From positions 62,001 through 126,000 of the forward strand of contig NZ_ATUS01000001.1 of assembly GCF_000420325.1 (NCBI RefSeq): DNA of 64,000 nucleotides. The letters run 5' to 3'. This DNA comes from Spongiibacter tropicus DSM 19543 (lineage in GTDB: Bacteria; Pseudomonadota; Gammaproteobacteria; Pseudomonadales; Spongiibacteraceae). A program made the position numbers and the translations under genes. Shown here in pieces: positions 1,864 through 15,992 of the stretch. Numbering within the stretch: the stretch's first letter is position 1; every line of letters starts with the position of its first letter. The notes under the pieces are model-generated. The model searched no databases. It was not told the origin of the DNA and saw nothing but the letters and a program-made list of their open reading frames with translations.

Positions 1864-2310
1864 AAAACTAGTGGCAATTCAGGTCCTGCAATAGGTGTAG
1901 ATATAGGGGTAGATTTTTTACAATTTGGAGTTCAGCAAGGTAGTATCGCTAACAGTTTCAGGGGTAGCAGTGGAAGCATTACGACAGACCTAATGCTCCC
2001 CTTCATTAGTGCAACAGGCACTATCACTTCAGGTGATATTAACTATGGTGGACAGATTAATTTAGGCATTTCAGTTGCTGATGCGATATTTTTTACGACA
2101 GGCATTCCAGTTCCTGAAGTAGTTGGCTCAAAAAATACTACTCACATCATTACTGTTGAAGATGCCTTGAATGGTTTTCGGACAGGGGTAAGCACATTTT
2201 TCGAGAGTTTTTTTGGCCCGGTAGACGGCCCAAATGAAAACGGCGCGCGCTATCCAATTGATTCGTTAGACCTAGACTTCGGAGCCGATGGAACAGGGTC
2301 TGATTTTTAA
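1864..2310 (+). pseudogene. 5'-truncated AT-rich reading frame, unknown product
   Basis: The frame is open from 1864 to a TAA at 2310, but no start codon appears before the ATG at 1993. It therefore looks like the C-terminal part (about 148 residues) of a longer gene cut off at the insert edge; an alternative is a 105-residue protein starting at 1993. The product is Gly/Ser/Thr-rich and low in charge (ISATGTITSGDINYGGQINL) with an acidic tail (DSLDLDFGADGTGSDF). I do not recognise the family. Base composition is much more AT-rich than the flanking modA and copA genes, suggesting transfer. Its last codons overlap the next gene. Confidence 0.5.
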
Positions 2311-2677
2311 GTTTAGCTTCCTAAAAGAGGGTTTGGTTTTGCTTAGAAAAATGAATATTAGAAAAAGATGGTTATTCTTTATCGGAATAGAAATTGTATT
2401 TTTAGCTATGGTGATAAGTTTTGTCAGCTTAATACTGAGCTCCGCACCCTATCTCTTTCCCATTTGGTTCTTAAGCTTCCCTATTTTTTTTTCAATTATC
2501 GTAAAATGCCCGAAATGTAATTCTTCATTTTTTTCTATTATCAAATCAGAGTCGTCAGTAACATCGAGACTTCGATTTGGAAGGTTATTAATTTTATTCT
2601 GGAAAACTCCACTAAAGGGTGAGGTTTTATGTCCGGTTTGTCATCACGATTTATTTGAATCTTCTCCAGATGAATAA
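2288..2677 (+). CDS. Small membrane protein with two CxxC pairs, unknown function
   Basis: A 129-residue product with two hydrophobic segments (about residues 28-50 and 56-72) followed by a soluble tail with CPKC (74-77) and CPVC (115-118), the spacing of a treble-clef or zinc-ribbon-like pair. The start at 2288 has GGAG just upstream and overlaps the end of the preceding frame by 23 bases; ATG 2351 is an alternative that keeps both hydrophobic segments. AT-rich like its partner. A short membrane protein translationally coupled behind the C-terminal piece of a larger protein is the layout of toxin-tip/immunity cassettes, but no toxin domain is recognised, so this is speculation. Confidence 0.55.
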   Translation: MEQGLIFKFSFLKEGLVLLRKMNIRKRWLFFIGIEIVFLAMVISFVSLILSSAPYLFPIWFLSFPIFFSIIVKCPKCNSSFFSIIKSESSVTSRLRFGRLLILFWKTPLKGEVLCPVCHHDLFESSPDE

Positions 2678-2919
2678 GGGATAGGTTTTTTTGCTCAAAA
2701 TACCCAAAAATCTGCTTAATCCGCCTCGTTTCTACCCTATAAGTGTAACTCCCGCTAGGAGTAGTCAGGGTGATAAGCAGTACTCAAGGACAGCAGTTCC
2801 TGTCACGGCTCGCGAAAAATATTTTGGTGTAGAGATGTCGGCTCATGCCGATCTGTTCGGCGAGTAGACTCCATATTTCCGCAGCAAACCTTTGATTTTA
2901 AAACGATATACCGCAACAA
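2678..2919. other. Insert tail without a supported gene
   Basis: This stretch joins the AT-rich insert to repeat copy B. Translated fragments on the minus strand near 2790-2870 (for example AEQIGMSRHLYTKIFF) vaguely resemble a mobile-element coding fragment, but each is interrupted by stops within 40 codons. No terminal inverted repeats were seen. Confidence 0.4.
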
Positions 2920-3027
2920 CAGACCGCTACCGCCAAAATCGTATCACGCCACATTGCTCCGCAGGCCCCGGGGCAAAGAAAAGGGCTTCTCCCGTTCGTT
3001 TATATCAACAGCGTCGTCGGCAAGGGC

Positions 3028-3058
3028 TTGACCTGTGTCTTAGACAAAGGTGTATAAC
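3028..3058 (+). promoter_or_regulatory. CueR/MerR-type promoter of copA
   Basis: TTGACC (3028-3033), a 19-base spacer and TATAAC (3053-3058), with the dyad ACCTGTGTC/GACAAAGGT at 3031-3051. The long spacer plus dyad is the signature of MerR-family activated promoters, and CueR controls copA in many gammaproteobacteria. No merR/cueR gene lies in this window, so the regulator would act from elsewhere. Confidence 0.8.
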
Positions 3059-3107
3059 CGACTTGCTGAATCAGATTCCTGTTCTGGTAAAGGCGCCGAC
3101 GGGACCT

Positions 3108-3176
3108 ATGATTTGCCATTTGATTGAAGAAGTTGCCGCGGATCAGCGTGGTAGAAGAAGCGAGTCAACGTATTGA
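3108..3176 (+). other. Candidate 22-codon leader ORF between copper promoter and copA
   Basis: ATG at 3108 begins MICHLIEEVAADQRGRRSES and stops at 3176, inside the transcribed leader. Copy A carries the same ORF (1575-1640) one codon shorter: the 3-base indel keeps the frame. GGGA lies 3-4 bases upstream. It contains a Cys-His pair near the start. Conservation may only reflect the recent duplication, so translation is uncertain. Confidence 0.25.
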
Positions 3177-3237
3177 AGCCGTTAACGTAGCTGGGCTGTC
3201 TTATCAAAGACCCATGCGAATAGGCCGGGAGTAGGGC

Positions 3238-5577
3238 ATGAGTTCAAACACAACATCTGGCGATGCATCTTGCCATAGTAATGACGCCACAACGTCACCC
3301 CATTATCTTCACACCCATGATCATCACCATCATGACGCCAAGACCGCCAATCTGCAGGAGCTCATTATTGAAGGAGCGGGCTGCGCCAGTTGCGTCGGGA
3401 AAATCGAGTCAGCATTGAATGCTGTGCCGGGCGTAGAAAAGGCGGAGATGAATTTTGCGATGCGCACCGTAAGTGTGGCGGGCACGGCGCCAGCAGATGC
3501 TTTGGTCAATGCGGTAGAGAAGGCCGGCTATAACGCCAAAATCGCAACGGCCGAGCATGAAGACGATGCGCTGGCGGAAAAAGAACAGGCAGATTGGGCC
3601 TATTACAAACGTCTGATGCGTGACATGACCATCGCCTTGTCCGTAGGTGTGCCGCTGATGATATACGGCATCGTCGGCGGCGCAATGACCGTGAATACGA
3701 CCGGTGAGCGCCTTGCGTGGTTAGCGGTAGGGCTCCTGACATTCGCCGTGATGGTCATTGCGGGTAAACATTTTTATATCGGTGCCTGGCAGTCCTTCAA
3801 AAACCACTCGGCCAATATGGACACCTTGATCGCGCTGGGCACAGGCACCGCATGGCTGTACTCCATGGTCGTTGTAGCCGCTCCCCAGCTCGTTCCGGAA
3901 ATGGCGCGACATGTGTACTTCGAAGCTACAGCCATGATTATTGGCTTAATTGACCTGGGCCTGGCGCTTGAACTGAAGGCCCGGGGCCGGACATCTGAAG
4001 CCATAAAGCGGCTTATCGGCCTGCAAGCTAAAACTGCCAGAGTCATTCGCGACGACAAAGAACTCGACGTGGCTATTGAGCAGGTATTAATGGACGACAT
4101 TGTCCGTGTGCGACCGGGCGAGAAAATTCCTGTCGATGGTGAAGTCATCGACGGTCATACGGCCATAGATGAGTCCATGCTAACCGGGGAACCGATGCCC
4201 GTTGAAAAAGCCGAGGGCGATGCTGTAGCGGCGGGCACCATCAATAAAACCGGCTCAATACGGTTCAAAGCCACCCGCGTCGGCAAAGACACGGCGCTCG
4301 CGCAAATTATCAATATGGTCAAGCGCGCGCAGAATTCCAAGCCGCCCATAGGGCGTTTGGCAGACGTGATCTCGGCGTATTTTGTGCCGGTCATCATGAT
4401 TATTGCCATCACAAGCGCACTGGCATGGCTCAATTTTGGTCCCGATCCAGCGCTTGCCTTTGCCATTGTGTCAGCCACCACCGTGCTGATTATCGCTTGC
4501 CCCTGTGCACTGGGGCTGGCAACCCCCATGTCGGTCATGGTGGGCGTGGGCAAAGCGGCGGAGGCGGGTGTGCTGATCCGCAATGGCGAAGCCTTGCAAA
4601 CCGCATCGAAAATATCGGCCATGATTCTGGATAAAACCGGCACGATCACACTGGGCGCCCCGAAAGTCACCGATATTCTAATCGCTAGCGAGGAGGACGA
4701 GAGCACCGTGCTAAAACTGGCGGCATCCCTTGAATCCGGATCAGAGCATCCCCTCGCGTTAGCCATTGTTGAGACTGCCCGAGAGCGGGGCATCGAGAGC
4801 AGCAAAGTCGCTAACTTCAGCGCCATTGCAGGCCATGGCGTGCAGGCGGACGTTGACGGTAAGACATTGCTGTTCGGCAACGAAAAACTGATGCGCGAGC
4901 GTAATATCGACCTCGGTGAGTTCGTCGAAAAAGCACAAAATCTCGCCATTGAGGCAAAAACTCCCATGTATTTCGCGGTGAACAATCGGCTGTCCGCCAT
5001 TATCGCCGTGGCTGATCCCATCAAAGACGACTCCATTGCCGCCATAAAACGCCTGCAACAGAACGGTATTCGCGTCGTCATGCTGACCGGTGATAACCGC
5101 GCGACGGCAAAGGCCGTTGCCGCAAAGGCGGGCATTTCCGAGTTTTTCGCCGAGGTACTGCCAGAAGACAAATCCAAAAAAGTTCAGGAATTGCAGATGG
5201 AAGGTGAAGTGGTCGGCATGACCGGCGATGGCATTAACGATGCGCCAGCGCTGGCCATCGCCAATGTCGGGTTTGCCATCGGCACCGGTACCGATGTGGC
5301 CATCGAGAGTGCCGATATCACCCTCATGCGTGGATCGCTGCACGGACTTGCCGATGCCATAGCGGTAAGCAAAGCCACGCTGCGCAACATCAAACAGAAC
5401 CTCTTCGGCGCCTTCGTCTATAACGCTGCCGGTGTGCCCTTTGCTGCGGGCGTGTTGTATCCATTCTTTGGCGTGTTATTGAGCCCGGTCGTCGCGGGGG
5501 CTGCGATGGCATTTTCGTCCCTGACCGTCGTCACAAACGCCAACCGTCTGCGCCTGTTTAAGGCACAAGAACACTAG
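3238..5577 (+). CDS. copA: Copper-exporting P1B-type ATPase CopA
   Basis: Inner-membrane pump that exports Cu(I) from the cytoplasm using ATP. The 779-residue product has a His-rich N-terminus (HTHDHHHH, 25-32), one heavy-metal-associated domain with GCASC (48-52), the transmembrane CPC motif (421-423), phosphorylation site DKTGT (D465), the SEHPLA histidine (H504) and GDGIND (663-668). CPC with a single GxxC-type domain is the P1B-1 (copper) signature. The start is the ATG 180 bases after the CueR-type promoter. A cupredoxin gene follows 36 bases later, probably co-transcribed. The His-rich extension may add metal binding (inference). No regulator gene is adjacent. Confidence 0.96.
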
Positions 5578-5613
5578 AGAGCGCCAACCAGCATCCTGTT
5601 AAGGAGAGTAGAT

Positions 5614-5970
5614 ATGCTTTTGATCAATATCGTCGGTATCGTGCTGATAGCACTGATTGTATGGTGGTTCTGGCTGTACAAGCCTAAAGAGGCCGAGCTT
5701 GGCGAAAACGACCTGATAATCACCGTCGAAAACGGCACGTACTCGCCTGCGAGAATCAAAGTGCCCGCAGGGAAGGCGATAGACATTAAATTCATGCGCA
5801 AAGACCCAACGCCTTGTTCCGAAACCTTGCTGATCCCCGAGTTAAGCATCAGCGAAACGCTGCCACTCAACAAACTGAAGTCGATCACTTTGCCGGCATT
5901 ACAGGCGGGCGAGTACGCATTCCATTGCCAGATGCAAATGTACCGGGGACAGATCATGGTTGGTAACTAA
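5614..5970 (+). CDS. Membrane-anchored cupredoxin-domain protein
   Basis: A 118-residue protein with one N-terminal membrane anchor (about residues 3-21, LINIVGIVLIALIVWWFWL) and a small cupredoxin fold. Potential copper ligands are C68 (PTPCSE), H104, C105, M107 and M109 (FHCQMQM). The AAGGAG ribosome site precedes ATG 5614. Position just after copA indicates a periplasm-facing copper carrier or chaperone that receives copper exported by CopA or passes it on (inference). Ligands differ from classic azurin/plastocyanin because the usual first histidine is replaced near C68. Confidence 0.85.
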   Translation: MLLINIVGIVLIALIVWWFWLYKPKEAELGENDLIITVENGTYSPARIKVPAGKAIDIKFMRKDPTPCSETLLIPELSISETLPLNKLKSITLPALQAGEYAFHCQMQMYRGQIMVGN

Positions 5971-6143
5971 GTCTTGTGGAGGCTATTTCAAAGCCCGCAT
6001 GCCATCGATAAAACCGAGAGCTTGTCATGAAGCTGATGACCGTGTACCGGCCTTCAGTCCGCTTTGCCTAGCCTTATTGGGCTTGCACCCCGCGAAAACC
6101 TCTCGTATAACAGATAGATAATTGCACCAAGGAATTAGGTGAA

Positions 6144-6371
6144 ATGGTACGGATTCAGGACAGCGGCGGGGCATTTCCGGCGCCCCGGACCAAGCGGCTC
6201 TTCTACCCGAATGAGCCGCACCTCGATACGTTCCCCATTCAGGACTGGAAGCGCCTGATCGGCAATCTCGACACCGTCGACGCCACATCAGCATACTTCC
6301 TCAAACTCGAAATCCTGGGCCTGTTAACAGCCGATCTCGGACATTTTTTTGAGGGGGTAGATTTTCACTAA
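6144..6371 (+). CDS. Hypothetical short protein, possibly a gene remnant
   Basis: A 75-codon frame with strongly GC-rich third positions for its first 65 codons, as expected for real coding sequence of this genome, then an abrupt turn to AT-rich codons (GHFFEGVDFH). A plausible ribosome site (AGGAATTAGGTGA) precedes the ATG. I do not recognise the product. The composition switch near 6345 suggests that the 3' end was replaced when neighbouring AT-rich DNA arrived. The opposite strand also has a 49-codon GC-rich frame (ADQALPVLNGERIEVRLIRV), so strand assignment is uncertain. Confidence 0.3.
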   Translation: MVRIQDSGGAFPAPRTKRLFYPNEPHLDTFPIQDWKRLIGNLDTVDATSAYFLKLEILGLLTADLGHFFEGVDFH

Positions 6372-6466
6372 CTGAAATCCATATAAGAATTTAAATAACC
6401 AATGAAACGATCATTGATGGTGGCTCGGCCCCGTGGACGACTGCTCATGTAAAAATAGGTGAATAA

Positions 6467-7117
6467 GTGCCAACAATATTCGAAGCAAAAATAGATGGAT
6501 CTAATGCGATCAGATACTTCCATTTCTCACTAGTCGAATTTTATCTAGAACAGGCCTATGTCAACTCTACGCAGGCAAAAGAAGATCAAGAGCCTAATCA
6601 TCTCTTAGCATCGAGCATCATGGGCATTATGTTTTCAGCAATGGCGCTAGAGGCATTTGCCAATGAGATCTCAGAGGAAATAATCCCTAAAGAGGATTTG
6701 AAGAGCTTTATTCACCTTAGAAAAGGATACAAGAAGTTACAGGGTGAATCGTCGGTACTAGCCAAGCTCCGGATATTGTTTAAAGAAAAATTTAATCACG
6801 ACCTAGACTCTGATGCGAAGTCTGGTTTGGAAAAGCTTACATCGTTACGAAACAACCTAGTCCATTACAAGCTAAGCGATCTTGCCGGTAAATATATCAT
6901 GCCTCCAGTTGGTAACATGGATGTAGGAGGTGGGCAAAAAATGCTCACCATTGACTTCATGCAAAAGCCTGAAAGAGTAGAACCCCCGTTTATACAAGAG
7001 GTTACTGGTGACGCGGCTCTTGAATGCTTCAATCATGCCTATTCAGTTATAGAAACATGGAATTCTCTAATATCAAAAAAGGAACAAGATTCTGGAAACG
7101 ACGTAAGTACTAGATAA
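6467..7117 (+). CDS. HEPN-like domain protein, orphan in accessory island
   Basis: A 216-residue, AT-rich gene starting at GTG. It is mostly helical in appearance: a stretch with ALEAFANEISEE (about 64-75), then charged helices and SLRNNLVHYKL with an R128-x4-H133 pair. Rx4-6H after a helix is the catalytic signature of HEPN ribonucleases, and a conserved acidic/aromatic helix before it fits. Many such stand-alone proteins sit in defence or toxin-antitoxin loci. No MNT nucleotidyltransferase or other partner is next to it, so a toxin role is unproven. Composition unlike its neighbours suggests transfer. Confidence 0.6.
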   Translation: MPTIFEAKIDGSNAIRYFHFSLVEFYLEQAYVNSTQAKEDQEPNHLLASSIMGIMFSAMALEAFANEISEEIIPKEDLKSFIHLRKGYKKLQGESSVLAKLRILFKEKFNHDLDSDAKSGLEKLTSLRNNLVHYKLSDLAGKYIMPPVGNMDVGGGQKMLTIDFMQKPERVEPPFIQEVTGDAALECFNHAYSVIETWNSLISKKEQDSGNDVSTR

Positions 7118-7451
7118 AGCAGTTTAAAAGTACGCAGTTAACCCGCCCCAATAATGCGAAGTGGAAGAAGGGCTACGCAGCTTCACGCTGAAGCTCGATG
7201 CCTTCTTCGCTGAGATACCATATTTTACATAATATATATTATGCGAACATTTGGGGACTGAATGGCGTCGCAAGCCCGGTCAATCCGTTCCCGTAACTCG
7301 CTTGCTTTTGTCGACTGTCCGTAGCCGACACGAACGCCCTCGAATTAAAACGCTGAACACCGATGCCCTTGCGCTTGCCGTGCAACGGCATATCCGGACG
7401 TCAGTCCAGACATGCTTGACGCCGGAACCCAATAGCTTGCAAGTCGGGCAC
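7118..7451. other. Intergenic stretch containing the dif-like site
   Basis: No convincing gene. The minus strand at 7160-7215 reads YLSEEGIELQREAA then stop, a coding-like scrap of unknown origin. The dif-like Xer site at 7222-7249 is the only clear element. Confidence 0.5.
7222..7249 (-). other. dif: dif-like XerC/XerD recombination site
   Basis: On the minus strand the 28-mer has a XerC arm TGTTCGCATAA, centre TATATA and XerD arm TTATGTAAAAT. Against the gammaproteobacterial dif consensus as I recall it (arms RNTKCGCATAA and TTATGTTAAAT, centre TGTATA) 25 of 28 positions agree. It could be the chromosome-dimer resolution site or the attachment site of a Xer-dependent integrated element. 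Only one such site was found in the window. Confidence 0.75.
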
Positions 7452-8450
7452 TTAATCGGTGAAGCAGATTTCCTTGCCGTTGCCCTGGTCGTAGCAATCG
7501 CGGCGATTGGAGTTTGGCGCTGACGGCAACTGGTTTTGCGAGTTGTTGATCATTGTTCTGTATGCGGCATCTGCAGCCTGTTTGCGGGCTTGGTCTTTGG
7601 CTGCCTGTTTATCGCGTTCCTGCCTGGCATAGAATTCACGCTGCGCACGGCCCGCCTCATAAGCCTCTTTGGCTAGTTTCTGGCCCCGAATACTATCGAG
7701 ATATTGCTGACGTTGAGCTGCTGCGATTTTTCGTGCTTTCTCGGCGGCTTCTCGACCCGCTGCGTCGTTTTCCAGCGCGTATTCATAGGCGATGGCAGGA
7801 ACATATCCACACCCTCGCGCATTGCGATGCTCGATTTGCGAGCGCCCCCAATGCATCAAGGCTTTATCTTTTGCTAGGTAGTGCGTCATTTTCGGCATTG
7901 CCGCTGCCGCGTTGCAGAAATTGGCCGAGAATTCACCGCGAATCAGGCCAATCTCCTCGAAATTGAGCTCTGCGCTGCGCTCACCAAAGCAATCGCCGTA
8001 AATCTTTGTCACCATGATCATCGCTTCACGCGGCGGATACTCGGATATTCTGTCGAGAGGAAGCGGCTTGTGCTTTTCCAGCGCTTTTTCCACCTTTTTA
8101 TCGGGCACAATGCCCCAGCGGTTTGGTTCGCCTTTCTTTAATTTATTGGAGGAATCTTGAGCCCATTTTCCGAATACCTGTGCTGCGAAGTCGCGTTGCA
8201 TGTAGGAGGCCGCCGTTTGTATCCCCTCTTTGCCCTTCAGGGCCCAAAACGCAACAACACCAAAAGACTTGTCGACAGCGATGAAGGCGCGGGGATTCTC
8301 GAGCTGCTCTGAGCTTAAATTTCATGCGGGCGGAGGCTGACTGTTCGAGTCCAATTGCGCCACGGCAGTGGAAGAAAAAGAAAAAATGGCAACGGTGGCC
8401 ACTATTGACGCGGCCGTAAACGCCCCGCTCGCCTTCGTATGCTTGGGCAT
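7452..8450 (-). pseudogene. Secreted Ala/Gln/Lys-rich protein interrupted by an in-frame TGA
   Basis: From ATG 8450 the frame encodes a clear signal peptide (SGAFTAASIVATVAIFSFSS then TAVA) and stops at TGA 8324-8322 after 42 residues. The same frame then stays open for 289 further codons, through AFIAVDKSFGVVAFWALKGK, to 7452. Removing the single stop gives a 332-residue exported protein with a central Cys-containing domain and a C-terminal helical region rich in Ala, Arg, Gln and Lys (about residues 215-305), probably coiled coil. ATG 8201 gives a 249-residue product without a signal peptide, unlikely to be functional. I do not recognise the family. A sequencing error or recent nonsense mutation are both possible. 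Confidence 0.7.
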
Positions 8451-8488
8451 CAGCTTCCCTCTATAAATGTTACAGCGCTGGGTTGTCG

Positions 8489-8842
8489 TTACTGAGTTGC
8501 AGCGTTGTTTTGCGAAAAGTCGGCCATATCCAGATGGTTCAGGTTAAGAATGCCGTGCTGGACGGCGACGAGTGTCGCCATCGCGCGATTTCTAATCCCG
8601 AGTTTTCGGTAAATTTCTTTCACGTATCCGTCTACCGTGTACATGCTGATAGATAAGATATTTGCAATCATCTTGTTGCTCTTACCCATCGCGAGTTCCT
8701 GGAGCACCTGGCGTTCGCGTGGCGTGAGGGGCAGCGGTTTTGCACTGGAATACGGGGTATTAGCGTTGTCGAGGGGCATTTTGGCGATCACTTTTCCGTT
8801 GCGATTGCCGAGTATCTTCCCCTGTGAATACGGGGCTGACAA
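8489..8842 (-). CDS. LuxR-type HTH transcription regulator without a sensor domain
   Basis: A 117-residue product consisting almost entirely of a LuxR/FixJ-type DNA-binding domain: LTPRERQVLQELAMGKSNKM followed by the recognition helix region TVDGYVKEIYRKLGIRNRA. The start given is a TTG; ATG 8779 would give 96 residues and still include the whole HTH. There is no receiver or autoinducer-binding domain, so the protein must respond through dimerisation, a partner, or its own level. It lies 24 bases downstream of a LysR-type gene on the same strand and could be co-transcribed. Targets unknown. Confidence 0.8.
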   Translation of the reverse strand: MSAPYSQGKILGNRNGKVIAKMPLDNANTPYSSAKPLPLTPRERQVLQELAMGKSNKMIANILSISMYTVDGYVKEIYRKLGIRNRAMATLVAVQHGILNLNHLDMADFSQNNAATQ

Positions 8843-8865
8843 ATGAATAATTCAGCGCTTTCAGA

Positions 8866-9774
8866 TTAGATTATCTTATTCGACCATTCTTTGGCGATGA
8901 TACCCGCTACCCACTGATGGAAGTCCTGAATGACTTGATCACCCTGATGCTTGTTGCTGTAGGTCAAAAAACATTCACCGTGCCGGGTAACTTTCTCGGC
9001 CATTGGCAGCACCAACTCATCGTCGCTGCGCATGAATTGATAGGACGTGGGCAGGTAGCCCATTGCGACGCCGATGTTGCTCTTCACGGCCTCGATACTC
9101 GCCTGCACCGTGCTGACTACCAGCTCGTTTGCAATATCCGGGAGCAGGCCCCACTGCGTTTGCCATCGTGGCCATTGGTAACTGTCGTTGGCGATTTTAA
9201 TGATCCGGCAGCCGCTGAAATCGCCGGCGCTCAAGCCGGGATGTTCGGCGAGGTAGCTCCGTGTGCAGATGGGCGTCAACGAGATTTCTACCAGGGGATG
9301 GTAGGTAAGCTCGGGCTCATTGCCACATTCGTGACGGATAGCGACGGTGGTTTCCGACTGTTCCAAATCAACCCGCGAGACATCGGAATCGATCTGGATT
9401 GTTAGCTCTGGATATTTCGGCTGGAACTCGTGGATGTTGGGAAACAGTAACAGCGTTGCGATATTTGGCAGTGTATTGATGACAAAACGCTGTTTTTTCC
9501 GCTCTTTGCGCACCGCCAGTGTGGCGGTATCAATCAAGTCCAGACCGCGTTTGACATGCAGATAGTAGCGTTTGCCTTCTGCCGTCAGGGAGATTTTGCG
9601 ATTTTCCCGTTTGAACAGCGCCACACCCAGATTTTCTTCCAGCGCTTTGATCTGGTGGCTGACTGCCGGGGGCGATACAAACAGTTCGTCTGCGGCGTCT
9701 TTGAAGCTTAATCGGCGAGCGGCAACTTCAAAAACACGAATCAGGTTAAGTGAAGGCAGGTGCTGGGTGGGCAT
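8866..9774 (-). CDS. LysR-family transcriptional regulator (GcvA-like)
   Basis: A 302-residue LysR-type regulator. Residues 8-67 form the winged HTH (LNLIRVFEVAARRLSFKDAA, then SPPAVSHQIKALEENLGVAL), followed by a periplasmic-binding-protein-like effector domain. The opening PSLNLIRVFEVAARRLSF and RTSYLAEHPGL-type text resemble the GcvA/AmpR subgroup. The ATG start follows an intergenic region of about 150 bases shared with the rhombosortase 3' end. A LysR regulator often controls a divergent neighbour, but here no gene is directly divergent, so its target cannot be inferred. Confidence 0.9.
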   Translation of the reverse strand: MPTQHLPSLNLIRVFEVAARRLSFKDAADELFVSPPAVSHQIKALEENLGVALFKRENRKISLTAEGKRYYLHVKRGLDLIDTATLAVRKERKKQRFVINTLPNIATLLLFPNIHEFQPKYPELTIQIDSDVSRVDLEQSETTVAIRHECGNEPELTYHPLVEISLTPICTRSYLAEHPGLSAGDFSGCRIIKIANDSYQWPRWQTQWGLLPDIANELVVSTVQASIEAVKSNIGVAMGYLPTSYQFMRSDDELVLPMAEKVTRHGECFLTYSNKHQGDQVIQDFHQWVAGIIAKEWSNKII

Positions 9775-9921
9775 ACGATACGACTCAACGATACAGCAGG
9801 CTAATCTATACGAGTGTTGCGGAATAACAACAAGAATATCCTAATGTTACGCGCGATATCACCCTGCACGCCGCAGATACCGAAATGTCTCACTCCCCTG
9901 TTGCTCAGGCAGACCATCACC

Positions 9922-10521
9922 CTACTCACCTCCACGCCCCAACGCTCGGCTGAGGCGCTGCGCAAGTGCCGACATCGCGCACAGAGTAACGCCGGATACC
10001 GCCCCCCATAAATGGGCCTCGGTGGCGACTCGCATGTCTATCAGCGATTCCGTGCTGCTAGTATCCAGCAGTCCGCTTTGTTCCAGTACGATTTTTGTCA
10101 GGAGCAGCAATAACAGCACTGGGCCGCTTATCGCGTGTTCGCGCCACAGCCAGATGCCGATGACCACGCTTAAACCATGTAGAACCCCAGACAAGCCCAC
10201 ATAGTGCTCCAGCTGGGGCTCCATCAGCAGAAGAAATCCGCCTGTGAGCAGGGCTACGACGACCACGACCGGCAGGAGGTAACTCCTGTTTTTCTCGGGA
10301 ATCAAACCGGCGAGTAATATCAAGGCAGCGAGATTCATCGCCATGTGTATGAGGTTCGAGTGAACAAAGTGTCCGCTGATTAGCCGCCACGGCATAGCGG
10401 CCAGAATGGCCTGGCGTTGATAACTCAACTCGGTTACGCCGCTCTCTGTTACCAGTTGCAGCACTATCAGCAAGGCCGCGATTCCCAGCAGCGCCGGATA
10501 TGGCCAGTTATTTCTCCACAC
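9922..10521 (-). CDS. rrtA: Rhombosortase (rhomboid-family sorting protease)
   Basis: A 199-residue intramembrane serine protease with about six hydrophobic segments. Rhomboid features: HFVHSNLIHMAMN (51-63), GLSGVLHG with the catalytic serine S111, and a later catalytic histidine H170 in TEAHLWGAVSG. The size and GLSGxLHG form match the rhombosortase subfamily, which processes proteins with a GlyGly-CTERM tail. The gene directly divergent from it encodes a protein ending in exactly such a tail, strong support for the assignment. The start is GTG; no ATG fits the frame. Confidence 0.92.
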   Translation of the reverse strand: MWRNNWPYPALLGIAALLIVLQLVTESGVTELSYQRQAILAAMPWRLISGHFVHSNLIHMAMNLAALILLAGLIPEKNRSYLLPVVVVVALLTGGFLLLMEPQLEHYVGLSGVLHGLSVVIGIWLWREHAISGPVLLLLLLTKIVLEQSGLLDTSSTESLIDMRVATEAHLWGAVSGVTLCAMSALAQRLSRALGRGGE

Positions 10522-10696
10522 ACATTTCTCAACACGCGCCCTTTAGCGCTCATTTCCAGAGCATTCAGTAAATACCGAATACTGCGCAACGTGACCTTAA
10601 GGTGTCACATATGCGCGTCAGACTACAGCGGCGTTCTCGGTAGAACGCCCCTTTGCGAGTCGCCGCCGAGATCTGCTTCACACCGCCCCAATATAC

Positions 10697-12745
10697 ATGA
10701 CGAGGTCTCTCCGGATGACGTTTCTGCGCGCAGTCATAACGATGTGCAGGCTGCTTATTGCCCTTTTTCTAATTGCCCCCAGCCATGCCAACACCGCCGC
10801 GCCACTGCCCTTTCACGGCTGGACGCTGACGCATGACGACATGGCCTACAATTTATCGGCGATAAGCAGAATGCAAGAATTCGGCGTGACACATGTTCAG
10901 CTCTCTCACCGCATTGTCACCCGCGTCGACCAGTTCCAGTCAGAACCAGAGGTCGTAGATCGCGTCCGGACACTGGCCAGTGCCATCCATAGTCAGGGTG
11001 GCCAGGCGATTGTCTGGATGCAGGAGCTTAACACCTCAGATACGCTCGCTTACTGCTTTGACCTGGACGGTGAGCAGATGCAGGAAAAAATGCAGGCCTA
11101 CCGGGATGCCCTGACAGCCGCGCCGGAAATCGACGGTGTGATGATTAGTTTCGGTAGCGCGCCGAGCGAGTTGCAGTACGTGCTTCCAAGCTGCAAGCCA
11201 TTGGAGTTTGCACAGCCCAAGGCCCGTTACAAAGCCATCATCGAGGCGGTTTCTCGTGTGGTAATGGATGAGTTCGGCAAGCAGGTGTACGTGCGAACTT
11301 TCTATCACAAGGGGCACGAGATACCGATTCTTCGCAATGCCTTGCAGGAAACCAAGCGGCCCATTGTGGTGATGTCTAAAGCCGAACCCAATGATTTTGA
11401 ACCCTATTACCCGCTTAATCCCTTAATTGCCGACGTCGGCGATCACGATCAGTTTTTCGAGCTGGATTGCGCCGGGGAATACTGGGGGCGTGGAGCGCTC
11501 CCCTTTGTTGCGATCGAGTACTTCGTACAGCGCTATCGCGAAGCCGCCCAGCGTCAAGCCACGGGCAAGGGCCGCTTTATTGGATCAACATGCCGGGTCG
11601 ACCGCTACGAATACTCAGCACTGGAAACCCTGAATGAAGCCAATCTGTTTGCGCAGGCTCAGCTCGTTCGCGACCCCAGTGTGAGCGCGCAGACGATTCT
11701 TCGTCGTTTCGTGGAATCGCAGTACGACCTCCCTGCGGGCAGCGATGAGCACCACGTGCTGGCCGACATTCTGCGCCGCACTTATTGGATTGGTCGAAAA
11801 ATGTACTACGCCAAGGGGGAGTGGGCGTTCAAGAAAGGCAGCGACCTCCCGTCCAGTAATACCGATGCCCTGGGCAATATGATCGATAAGAGCATCTCTC
11901 AGTGGGAGCCCGCCTACACGCCGATTACCGCCGCCCTGCTCTCACCCGGCCGCCAGACACTGCAGGAGCTGGGGCAGGAAAAGTTTGAAGCCAGTGACCT
12001 CGCGCGGCGAAATCTTGAGACCCTGGAGCAGTTACGGAGTGCGCTGCAGCCGAGCGATTACACAGCGATCGAGACGCTATTGCTGAAACAGCGAATCGCC
12101 GCGGACATTTGGCGGCATATGTCCGGCGCGGTGTTTGCTGCGCGTAGTTTGAACCTGGCGTCGTCGAACTGGGCCGCTTGGCATCTCGAGCAGATGGAAG
12201 CGATTGCCCAGCAGTTGGACCAACAGTCCTACCCTCAACTGCCCGATACGTATCCCTTCTCTAGCGACGACATTCGGGCGTTTGCGGAGAGCGAGCGTCG
12301 GTTCTTGTTCGCTACCGCAGCCTCCCCACTGGAACAATTGACTATCAGCATGATTGATGTCGTGCCTAGCACTAGCAATTCCCTCACGCTGCGCTGGCTG
12401 GCGGAAGCCGATACCCAGTACCGCATTGAACTCAGCCAGCAGCTTCCCAACTACACGACCGAGATAGCGATCGACGGGACGAGTGAGGCCCTGCCGAGCC
12501 TGAATGACTTTACGATTACCGATCTTGAAGCGGACTCGCCGTACTGGTTACGCATCACGGCCAGCCGCGGCGAGGAAACGGTGAGCTCTGGCGATTTTCC
12601 TGTCTGGACCCTGAGTACGCTCGATGCGCAAGATTCCGGGACACCGTCACTGCAATCGCGCTCGGCATCGGGTGGCGGCGCACTGTCACTGTGGTGCCTT
12701 ATTGGCTTGGCAATGATGCAATGGGCCCGCCGACGCGGGCCTTAG
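10697..12745 (+). CDS. Large secreted GlyGly-CTERM protein, possible glycosidase-like barrel
   Basis: A 682-residue exported protein. An N-terminal signal peptide (about residues 13-31, ITMCRLLIALFLIAPSHA) is followed by a large region that looks like a TIM-barrel glycosidase (FHGWTLTHDDMAYNLSAISR, VTHVQLSH, DGVMISFG, FFELDCAGEYWGRG), an Fn3-like domain near 560-645 (NSLTLRWLAEADTQYRIELS), and a C-terminal sorting tail: SGGGALSLWCLIGLAMMQWA plus RRR. That tail is the GlyGly-CTERM signal cut by rhombosortase; such proteins usually leave through type II secretion. The cognate protease is divergently encoded 175 bases away. The enzyme class is a guess, distantly reminiscent of alpha-glucuronidase-type barrels. 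Confidence 0.85.
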   Translation: MTRSLRMTFLRAVITMCRLLIALFLIAPSHANTAAPLPFHGWTLTHDDMAYNLSAISRMQEFGVTHVQLSHRIVTRVDQFQSEPEVVDRVRTLASAIHSQGGQAIVWMQELNTSDTLAYCFDLDGEQMQEKMQAYRDALTAAPEIDGVMISFGSAPSELQYVLPSCKPLEFAQPKARYKAIIEAVSRVVMDEFGKQVYVRTFYHKGHEIPILRNALQETKRPIVVMSKAEPNDFEPYYPLNPLIADVGDHDQFFELDCAGEYWGRGALPFVAIEYFVQRYREAAQRQATGKGRFIGSTCRVDRYEYSALETLNEANLFAQAQLVRDPSVSAQTILRRFVESQYDLPAGSDEHHVLADILRRTYWIGRKMYYAKGEWAFKKGSDLPSSNTDALGNMIDKSISQWEPAYTPITAALLSPGRQTLQELGQEKFEASDLARRNLETLEQLRSALQPSDYTAIETLLLKQRIAADIWRHMSGAVFAARSLNLASSNWAAWHLEQMEAIAQQLDQQSYPQLPDTYPFSSDDIRAFAESERRFLFATAASPLEQLTISMIDVVPSTSNSLTLRWLAEADTQYRIELSQQLPNYTTEIAIDGTSEALPSLNDFTITDLEADSPYWLRITASRGEETVSSGDFPVWTLSTLDAQDSGTPSLQSRSASGGGALSLWCLIGLAMMQWARRRGP

Positions 12746-12846
12746 TCGTAGCGCGCGTCCCGCCCCACCTGGGCAGCACACTTCCCCCAGCGACCAACAA
12801 GCGCGTAATATTGCTCAGGGCTTTCCTGTCAAAAGGCGTTGTTGAT

Positions 12847-13263
12847 ATGTCACGTGGAATGAAAATCTATGCGGCTCTGCTCGTGGCGCTGGGCGGGTTT
12901 ATCGTATTCAACATATTTTACGAGCCGTCAGATGTCAGGGCGCTGAATGCTACGCTGAAACAAGATGAACAACTCAGCAGCTACCCCTACACATTTCGCG
13001 TTTTACGCCTGAAAGATGGCGTGGCGACGATGACATCCCCGCGCTCGGCGTCCGTCCCCGTACCGATGATTATCAGCGTCATTGAGCCGGCGCTAAGCGG
13101 CATATCCGTCAACGACGAGCGTTTCTTTGCGGCTCAACAACGCCTTGCCGACATGCAGTCGAGAGCGCATACACTGGTCACCGCCAGCCCCGACGTCGAC
13201 CGCGTTATATGGGCCTTGGACGAAGCCTGGCTTCAATCTCAGGGAATCACACTGCCCCGCTAA
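12847..13263 (+). CDS. Small exported or membrane-anchored protein, unknown function
   Basis: A 138-residue product beginning MSRGMKIYAALLVALGGFIV, a signal anchor or signal peptide, followed by a soluble domain of mixed composition (YPYTFRVLRLKDGVATMTSP; DERFFAAQQRLADMQSRAHT; DVDRVIWALDEAWLQSQG). The start ATG 12847 is preceded by AAAGGCG; longer in-frame starts would overlap the previous gene and lose the signal sequence. It lies about 100 bases after the GlyGly-CTERM gene on the same strand and converges on a lipoprotein gene. I do not recognise the family. Composition matches the genome. Confidence 0.7.
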   Translation: MSRGMKIYAALLVALGGFIVFNIFYEPSDVRALNATLKQDEQLSSYPYTFRVLRLKDGVATMTSPRSASVPVPMIISVIEPALSGISVNDERFFAAQQRLADMQSRAHTLVTASPDVDRVIWALDEAWLQSQGITLPR

Positions 13264-13286
13264 CGCCTTGCCCGCGCTTGAACGCG

Positions 13287-15332
13287 CTACGGCGTTCGTG
13301 GGACAACGGCAATAAAGTAGTTGCTGCTTTGGTAGCAAGGCACGGCGACCATTACATCCTCGGTATCGCTGTACTCCCCAACAATGGAAGGATGCCCCGG
13401 CGCCAAACACCCCTCTTCAACAGCGTGGGTAGACGTCGCCACTTCGCCACCTTCACTGTCCAGCTCAATAATATGGAATGTATTGTCATTGAATCCGGCA
13501 CTGATCAGTAAGCTATTGCCGGAGTCTTCGTCGTACCAGATATCGATGCCTACCGGCCCGTCGCCGACCGGCAGGGGCTCAAGAATAACGGGAGTGCCGA
13601 CACCATCCCAAACAAGTGGAATCACCTGGTCATTGGCAAAATCACTCACAGCGCAAACTGGACCGTCCGCGCTGCAGCGAATTTTTCGAGGACTCTCCCC
13701 CACAGAACCGACATTTTCTTTGTCTCCAATTCTGTCGTCAAAGTAGAGATCCCCAGTTTCTGTTACCACCAAAATGGCACCACCGTCTATTTTCCCTGTC
13801 GCGCTGACAGGTTCGAGGAAATTGTAGTCGAGAGATGCAGACCACGAATATCCGTCAAAGCTGCTATCGTAGCTAACGAAACGAATCTCGGTATCGGCTG
13901 TGACAACCATTTCGTTCGCAAAGATTGTTCCGGGCGGCACATTGGCCGCATCGGTATGGGCTCCTTGCCGAATATTGCCACCCGGCCCAAATTCTCCGGT
14001 ATCGGGGCTGAAGTTCATCAGAAAGCCTTGCGCCCCTACGCCGTACTCAACAATGGCGGCCGCGGTACTCCTCTCACCCGAAGTGGCGAGTTGCGCAATT
14101 AGATGAGCCCCCTGAAGATTGAAGCCGGTTTTATTCTCGCTTGTTTGATCCGCGATAATGTTCCCGTTATCGGCGCGAATTAGCGCACTACCGTGGTCGC
14201 CAGCCATCAGCAGGCCAAGCACTTGAGTTGTCGGAGCAAGGGCATTGATGCCTGCTTCACTGACTAACTGCAGTGTTTCGAGCAGTTGTAAGCCACTCGG
14301 CGCGGAAAATAGCCCCAGTTCCGGCGTGGAGTCGGGTTCTTCCCCTCCGGCATCGACACAATCAACTGGCGTCGAAGAGTAAAAACTGTATTCATAAACA
14401 CGGCCCAAATCGTCTCCCGATGTATCGGTTGCGAACAGGGTGTTGGCATAGACAACACCACCTTCAGCGATGAACGCCAGCGAGGTTCGCCCGACACCAG
14501 GGCAATACAGCACTACGCTCTGTTGGGCAGGCCCAAGAGTGCCGTCTTCACGCTCCACTTGAAACATCTCGAACGCTGGTGGTGTGGAGGTATCAAAGCA
14601 ATCTCCGGCGGCAGTCTCGAGAATACTCTGATTGTCAGGGTTGAACGCAGGACAGACTCCCACTCGCCGATCAAGAAAGCGCGACGCACCGCCACCGGTT
14701 CTAAGTTCCGCCGTGAAGCTGGCATTAACAGGGTCATCAACTTCGATTTGCGCAGGCACGCCTGACACCAAGAAGTCCACATCATTTAGCGAACCACGTC
14801 GGAGAATAAGTGGCGAGAAATGCGATAGCGCGCCTTCTACAGTAACGCTTGCACTCCCCGCGTCCTCTCTGACAATCACAGTTTGATCGAGCAGTACTTC
14901 TGGAACTCCCTCGTCGTCCACTGTCCCCAATGCCAGTATGGGAAGCGAAAATTCACCCCGGCGCGCCACGGGATTTATCGGTGCTTCAAGAACAACCTTT
15001 ATCGGAGCGTCAAAAGTTAATCCATCTGGGCCCAATTCGTAGTAGCTGAGATTACTCTCCGAGGAAAGCGCATCAGGGACATCACTCACGCGTAGAGCGT
15101 CAATACGAATCTCAACGGTTTGCTCCAGCGCTCCCGCAGGTATCTCGAGTCTTAACAGGCCATCGCTGGACACGATTTCTCCACCCGACGCTCCGATTGT
15201 TTGGCTCCGGCTAGTGCTACTTGCGTTGGAGTTCGAATCAGAATGCCAGCAAGCAGCCAGCGTCAGGCAAATGGTGATGATAAGAAATTTCGATTGGGTG
15301 CTCGGCTTATTCTCGAACCTTTTGAAAAACAT
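13287..15332 (-). CDS. Large lipoprotein with ZU5-like domain, unknown function
   Basis: A 681-residue predicted lipoprotein. ATG 15332 is chosen because GAAGGT lies about 10 bases upstream and it leads straight into a lipoprotein signal: SKFLIITICLTLAAC with lipobox cysteine C28. A Ser/Asn-rich linker follows, then a ZU5-like motif (GGEIVSSDGLLRLEIPAGAL, near 47-66). The rest is acidic and beta-rich with repeated short strands (DTGEFGPGG, DGYSWSASLDYNF, DDRIGDKENVG) that suggest a propeller or repeat-sandwich surface domain. It faces the previous gene tail to tail. Likely anchored in the outer membrane; function unknown. Confidence 0.8.
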   Translation of the reverse strand: MFFKRFENKPSTQSKFLIITICLTLAACWHSDSNSNASSTSRSQTIGASGGEIVSSDGLLRLEIPAGALEQTVEIRIDALRVSDVPDALSSESNLSYYELGPDGLTFDAPIKVVLEAPINPVARRGEFSLPILALGTVDDEGVPEVLLDQTVIVREDAGSASVTVEGALSHFSPLILRRGSLNDVDFLVSGVPAQIEVDDPVNASFTAELRTGGGASRFLDRRVGVCPAFNPDNQSILETAAGDCFDTSTPPAFEMFQVEREDGTLGPAQQSVVLYCPGVGRTSLAFIAEGGVVYANTLFATDTSGDDLGRVYEYSFYSSTPVDCVDAGGEEPDSTPELGLFSAPSGLQLLETLQLVSEAGINALAPTTQVLGLLMAGDHGSALIRADNGNIIADQTSENKTGFNLQGAHLIAQLATSGERSTAAAIVEYGVGAQGFLMNFSPDTGEFGPGGNIRQGAHTDAANVPPGTIFANEMVVTADTEIRFVSYDSSFDGYSWSASLDYNFLEPVSATGKIDGGAILVVTETGDLYFDDRIGDKENVGSVGESPRKIRCSADGPVCAVSDFANDQVIPLVWDGVGTPVILEPLPVGDGPVGIDIWYDEDSGNSLLISAGFNDNTFHIIELDSEGGEVATSTHAVEEGCLAPGHPSIVGEYSDTEDVMVAVPCYQSSNYFIAVVPRTP

Positions 15333-15527
15333 GACGAATACCTTCGTTTTTTGAGATATCACAACTTTCAGTTGCGCTGTCTTACAAGCAAAAAGGGAGT
15401 GAGTCAGTTTTTACTATAGTGGCTCAGAATCGCGACAAGTAATCTAACTTGAAAAAATGAGAAGTAGTGCGAGCTTGCGGCAAGACCGTGTAAAGGCTGG
15501 GGACGTTTGGGATCAGATTAGCTGGAG

Positions 15528-15992
15528 CTAGTAGTCGGCGTCACTTTGAAAACGGAGCAACACATCGCGATCAATGCCGCTGCCACCGGCTTCTCCGTCC
15601 GAGCCAAAGCTTGTCAGCTCGAAAGAAGGCGGCGCGTCGGAGCTATTGTAGCGATAGGGTCGCTGCCAGGGATCTTCAAGCAGGTTGGCCCGGCTCAAGT
15701 AGGGCCCCGCCCAGTTGGGTGCCAGCGGGGCTGTCTGAGGGGGCTGCAGCAAGGCGCTCAGGCCTTGCTCCGCGCTGGGGTAGCGCAGATTGTCCAGTTT
15801 GTATTGGTGTAGCGCTAGCGAGATACGTTCGAGGTCTGCTGCGGCGTGGTGGTGCATTGCCTCTTCCGCGCGGTGCTTCACCAAACTGCTTACATAGATA
15901 GCAAGCACCGCAACAATAACGAGCACCCAAATCACCTCGCGACGGGTAATCCCCGCCTGGCGGCGCGCGCAGACACAGTAAGACTCGGACAT
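15528..15992 (-). CDS. Orphan GspG-like type II secretion pseudopilin
   Basis: A 154-residue protein with a prepilin-type leader and the GspG C-terminal pattern: RYPSAEQGLSALLQPP, NWAGPYLSRANLLEDPWQRP, FGSDGEAGGSGIDRD (the calcium-binding end of GspG). The cleavage site reads AG^ITRRE: the glycine and the glutamate at +5 are kept, but two arginines replace the usual hydrophobic residues at +3/+4, followed by a normal helix (VIWVLVIVAVLAIYVSSLV). No other gsp genes are adjacent. Its ATG directly abuts the stop of the upstream acuI-like gene, implying translational coupling. It may be a specialised minor pseudopilin (inference). Confidence 0.85.
   Translation of the reverse strand: MSESYCVCARRQAGITRREVIWVLVIVAVLAIYVSSLVKHRAEEAMHHHAAADLERISLALHQYKLDNLRYPSAEQGLSALLQPPQTAPLAPNWAGPYLSRANLLEDPWQRPYRYNSSDAPPSFELTSFGSDGEAGGSGIDRDVLLRFQSDADY

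Follow-up and report, generated by a model that had tools for sequence, protein, structure and literature searches.

A divergent rhombosortase and GlyGly-CTERM gene pair in Spongiibacter tropicus with a predicted GH67-like substrate

The gene pair and its genomic setting

In a 64,000-nucleotide window of the Spongiibacter tropicus genome (the whole stretch of DNA analyzed here), two divergent open reading frames lie back to back, as an earlier note made from the sequence had described, with 175 bp between them. The features of the locus are as follows.

9922..10521, minus strand: rhombosortase (rrtA/rssP type), 199 aa, with the S111 and H170 dyad, SGVLH, and AHLWGAVSG (TIGR03902, residue check)
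10522..10696, no strand: intergenic region between the divergent starts, 175 bp
10697..12745, plus strand: secreted GlyGly-CTERM protein, putative GH67-like glycosidase, 682 aa (ORF, profile, fold)
10697..10792, plus strand: Sec-type signal peptide region, approximately residues 1 to 32 (hydrophobic N terminus in the sequence)
10799..11680, plus strand: predicted eight-stranded alpha/beta barrel, residues 35 to ~328, with candidate carboxylates D233, E255, E261, and tentatively E158 (AlphaFold2, Foldseek, AguA alignment)
11684..12310, plus strand: predicted helical C-terminal domain of the core (GH67C-like), approximately residues 330 to 538 (PF07477, model)
12356..12607, plus strand: fibronectin type III-like domain, approximately residues 554 to 637 (PF00041)
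12668..12742, plus strand: GlyGly-CTERM tail comprising SGGG, hydrophobic helix, and ARRRGP (TIGR03501, 14.6 bits; orthologue tails)

The 199-aa protease scored 134.4 bits against TIGR03902, above the curated cut-off of 84, versus 33.5 bits against the GlpG model, and reached an E value of 6.8e-39 in the whole-genome search. The rhombosortase subfamily is marked by SGxLH, with a His replacing Tyr205 of GlpG, and by AHxxGxxxG in TM6 (Haft and Varghese, PMC3237569). Both signatures are present, as S111-G-V-L-H115 (within GLSGVLHG at residues 109 to 116) and as A169-H170-LWG-AVS-G177, so that the S111, H170, and GLSGVLHG of the earlier note are all in place, with H115 also at the position that they imply. 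Judged by these motifs and scores, the product of 9922-10521 on the minus strand is a true rhombosortase. No sigma-70-like match was found in the 175-bp intergenic region (10522..10696).

The 682-aa protein, whose length agrees with the earlier description, ends in SGGGALSLWCLIGLAMMQWARRRGP. Its tail starts at residue 658 and unites a Gly-rich motif, a hydrophobic helix, and a basic cluster at the extreme C terminus (residues 658 to 682). TIGR03501 gave 14.6 bits (E value, 0.43), the best score in the genome and just below the cut-off of 15.5. Profile A3, compiled from 20 tails of relatives, gave an E value of 4.8e-7, which is inflated because the window tail was included; a profile built without it gave 6.8 bits, yet the tail still ranked at the top of the 105 ORFs scanned. 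A simple tail rule matched 6 of 490 ORFs, only two of which had extreme C-terminal tails on soluble secreted proteins. Taken alone, the tail would be weak evidence; the case for it rests on its extreme C-terminal position, the rhombosortase beside it, and the tails on both close orthologues.

The pair sits in a lineage-specific variable segment: the sohB-(acuI)-gspG block on its right is common to congeners, and everything beyond gspG is species specific. This segment spans approximately 2000 to 15400 of the window, up to the conserved gspG-sohB block, and holds genes for a copper-type P-ATPase, a cupredoxin-like protein, proteins of unknown function, and a ZU5-domain protein along with the pair. 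The GC content of the pair (55 to 58%) does not stand out. A pseudopilin gene of the gspG type (TIGR01710, 111 bits) at 15528-15992 on the minus strand is separate from the type II secretion system (T2SS) operon that bears GspD. This is a genus-wide stand-alone gene, as it follows sohB (with or without acuI) in 7/7 congeners compared, whatever lies beyond. We rejected a link between it and the pair on this ground and because the T2SS operon with GspD is on another contig.

One rhombosortase and one recognizable target

We searched the genome (3.95 Mb; completeness, 100%) for further rhombosortases and GlyGly-CTERM proteins, a count that the earlier note had proposed. Only one rhombosortase scored above the TIGR03902 cut-off. 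A separate rhomboid on contig C3 matched Pfam Rhomboid (98 bits) better than the rhombosortase model (51 bits), which places it with the usual GlpG type. TIGR03501, searched up to an E value of 10, returned two matches, the 682-aa neighbor and a stretch of a 1,118-aa FimV-like protein that we rejected as a target because it is internal rather than C-terminal. With profile A3, the neighbor alone was recognized, and the next match was a 121-aa frame at an E value of 1.1. The genome also encodes a T2SS, whose gsp-like operon on contig C3 includes a GspD secretin (559.6 bits), so that rhombosortase, T2SS, and GlyGly-CTERM protein occur together. There is thus one rhombosortase and one recognizable, adjacent target, a count that could miss diverged targets, since genuine weak tails in congeners reached only E values of 0.5 to 0.8 with the profile.

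This result supports well the one-to-one relation that had been suggested, and no second rhombosortase speaks against it. Contrary to the impression given earlier, the arrangement is not unusual. Haft and Varghese (2011, PMC3237569) listed 21 genomes with one rhombosortase and a single GlyGly-CTERM target, and in 16 of these the two genes adjoin, a tendency that amounts to a documented rule for single-target genomes. One-protease, one-target pairs have been known since 2011, the present pair fits that description fully, and only the identity of the substrate enzyme is new.

Among 84,980 species genomes scanned, we found only two close orthologues of the substrate, in metagenome-assembled genomes of Oceanococcus (66% identity) and Abyssibacter (61% identity). 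Both carry GlyGly-CTERM tails. Each of these genomes has one rhombosortase above the cut-off, which does not adjoin the orthologue, and about eight to ten GlyGly-CTERM proteins. In those genomes the enzyme is therefore one target among many, and here it is apparently the sole one: the private tie between protease and substrate holds for this genome but is not intrinsic to the substrate, whose orthologues share an unlinked rhombosortase with many other proteins. In both genomes (loci L099 and L100), the rhombosortase gene directly adjoins T2SS pseudopilin genes.

The substrate had no match among 17 congeners or 391 genomes of the order, and 398 genomes of the phylum yielded distant relatives only. 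Distant relatives (20 to 24% identity) came from three genomes within the same class and from a plasmid of Pelagibacterium. One adjoins a gene read as unsaturated-uronyl-hydrolase-like (L091), and the plasmid-borne one adjoins a GH43 gene. Viral contigs that we scanned held no relative. In trees, the window rhombosortase grouped with those of congeners (support, 93/92 in one and 84/85 in another). Placement beside the donor-like rhombosortases, as expected if an Oceanococcus-like bacterium had donated both genes together, could not be firmly rejected (AU P = 0.073).

Elsewhere in the order, rhombosortase genes neighbor different proteins. Three of these end in a clear tail: an S15-peptidase/PKD protein of 1,039 aa (congener G002), a lactonase-propeller protein of 605 aa (G048), and an unclassified protein of 286 aa (G024). 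In congener G007, the neighbor is a metallophosphatase/endonuclease protein of 1,761 aa whose end is tail-like. Rhombosortase loci in this order thus adjoin unrelated substrates. A conserved rhombosortase-like gene also lies beside MFS and yajQ-like genes in congeners G003, G005, G006, G007, G008, G016, and G017 (L024-L029 and L041), with an active site of SAALYG or similar that has Tyr instead of His. No GlyGly-CTERM neighbor was seen at these loci, and the gene may encode a rhombosortase that acts on something else or has lost its target. In congener G001 (L034), the rhombosortase ORF appears to end before the catalytic His, possibly as a decayed copy.

Two other readings of the pair have to be weighed. 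A hydrophobic C-terminal helix and a few arginines might have come to lie beside a rhomboid gene by chance, with no functional link. The weakness of the tail by itself would allow this, but the same tripartite tail is found on two orthologues of 61 to 66% identity, in genomes that have a rhombosortase and several clear targets; we regard coincidence as already disfavored and very improbable. We also consider it unlikely, if less so, that the rhombosortase serves further targets whose diverged tails the profiles missed, with the neighbor merely the most canonical of them. Several congeners have rhombosortases with no profile-recognizable target, and true tails at E values of ~0.5 to 0.8 exist in G002 and G010. 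Against this, two profile searches of the genome down to an E value of 10 revealed no further C-terminal tail, and in the literature, adjacent genes mark the single-target genomes.

A GH67-like core in the substrate

The earlier note had taken the substrate for a TIM-barrel glycosidase with a fibronectin type III domain and of unknown enzyme class. Based on sequence profiles and a predicted fold, the first point is supported and the class narrows to GH67 alpha-glucuronidase-like, short of confirmed membership. Pfam GH67C (PF07477) matched at 26.8 bits (E value, 4.5e-6), just below its cut-off of 27, and GH67M at 13.4 bits (E value, 0.039), far below its cut-off of 23.5. The fibronectin type III domain is real but weakly matched (PF00041; E value, 5.5e-4 here and 5.2e-6 in an orthologue); both it and the GH67C match recur in all three orthologues, the window protein included. 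In the PDB, phmmer detected no relative when queried with this protein alone. A seven-sequence profile that combined it with its relatives did match PDB entries, the best being Geobacillus AguA (1k9d, 1mqp; E value, 2.8e-7). In this alignment, AguA residues D364, E386, and E392 correspond to D233, E255, and E261, which are invariant among the three close orthologues. In AguA, E285 serves as the acid, and D364 and E392 serve as the bases. The reaction that characterizes GH67 alpha-glucuronidases is the release of (4-O-methyl)glucuronic acid from xylo-oligosaccharides.

Structure prediction, which the earlier note had proposed, gave a consistent picture. A single-sequence model was of no use (pLDDT, 41), and we instead modeled residues 35 to 538 with AlphaFold2 from three sequences (pLDDT, 69; pTM, 0.70). 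In the model, eight strands with intervening helices precede a helical domain. In a Foldseek search of this core against the PDB, the top 11 matches were all GH67 alpha-glucuronidases (E value, 2e-9), followed by GH84, with GH115 lower. D233 directly follows strand 6, E255 sits at strand 7, and E261 comes after it. E158, which follows strand 4, is a tentative general acid whose alignment with the GH67 acid is not secure. Both Pfam and the model indicate that the GH67N domain is absent and that the barrel begins directly after the signal peptide; because this domain is missing, we describe the core as GH67-like and do not claim GH67 membership.

Alternatively, the domain could retain the fold in a binding or structural role without being a glycosidase. 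The missing GH67N domain and the low GH67M score fit such a role, as do the distant relatives, some of which lack the aligned catalytic residues, with Arg at the AguA D364 position in enterobacterium-like ones. Within the close orthologues, however, D233, E255, and E261 are invariant and directly follow predicted strands 6 and 7, and we find a noncatalytic role unlikely. A glycosidase remains our preferred reading.

Proposed function and comparison with known systems

We think it probable that the pair is a dedicated rhombosortase/GlyGly-CTERM system with one recognizable target, a Sec-exported, membrane-held protein whose GH67-like barrel cleaves an alpha-linked uronic acid or similar sugar. 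Sec would export the 682-aa substrate, and the C-terminal helix would keep it in the inner membrane. By analogy with VesB, cleavage by the rhombosortase may then be followed by lipid attachment and surface location. This mechanism has been demonstrated for VesB, and GlpG cuts elsewhere, giving a soluble protein (PMC6219818; PMC11389362). The barrel is predicted to remove an alpha-linked uronic acid, or a sugar like it, from a glycan or oligosaccharide by hydrolysis; GH67 enzymes target uronic acid on the non-reducing end of xylo-oligosaccharides (PMC3879575). More tentatively, the protein might represent an uncharacterized group of secreted, cell-surface GH67-like enzymes with no N-terminal domain and a sugar specificity of their own, and rhombosortase loci across this group of bacteria might be accessory modules that swap single substrates, an idea that we hold as possible rather than probable.

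The locus is a real, ordinary dedicated rhombosortase pair; its contribution lies in assigning the substrate to a GH67-like class and in comparing it with orthologues from genomes that have many targets. Pairs with a single target provide the clearest test of what a rhombosortase does, as knockout of the protease should touch one protein. For this target a likely enzyme class can be named, and the many-target genomes that hold its orthologues are a natural point of comparison. Neither Pfam nor NCBIfam covers its GH67-like group at cut-off.

Like the GH67 enzymes AguA of Geobacillus stearothermophilus (1k9d/1mqp) and GlcA67A of Cellvibrio (1gqi), the substrate has a barrel and a helical C-terminal domain and keeps the counterparts of D364, E386, and E392. 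It differs in lacking GH67N, in its identity of only ~14%, and in its signal peptide, Fn3 domain, and GlyGly-CTERM tail, and it is a predicted enzyme only. With the dedicated pairs of Haft and Varghese (PMC3237569, Table 3), the locus shares one rhombosortase, one recognized target, adjacent genes, and a T2SS in the genome; the GH67-like substrate may set it apart from the pairs in that table. RssP/VesB of Vibrio cholerae (PMC6219818, PMC11389362) likewise combines a rhombosortase, a GlyGly-CTERM tail, a T2SS, and a separate GlpG, but the rhombosortase there serves several unlinked targets and VesB is a serine protease.
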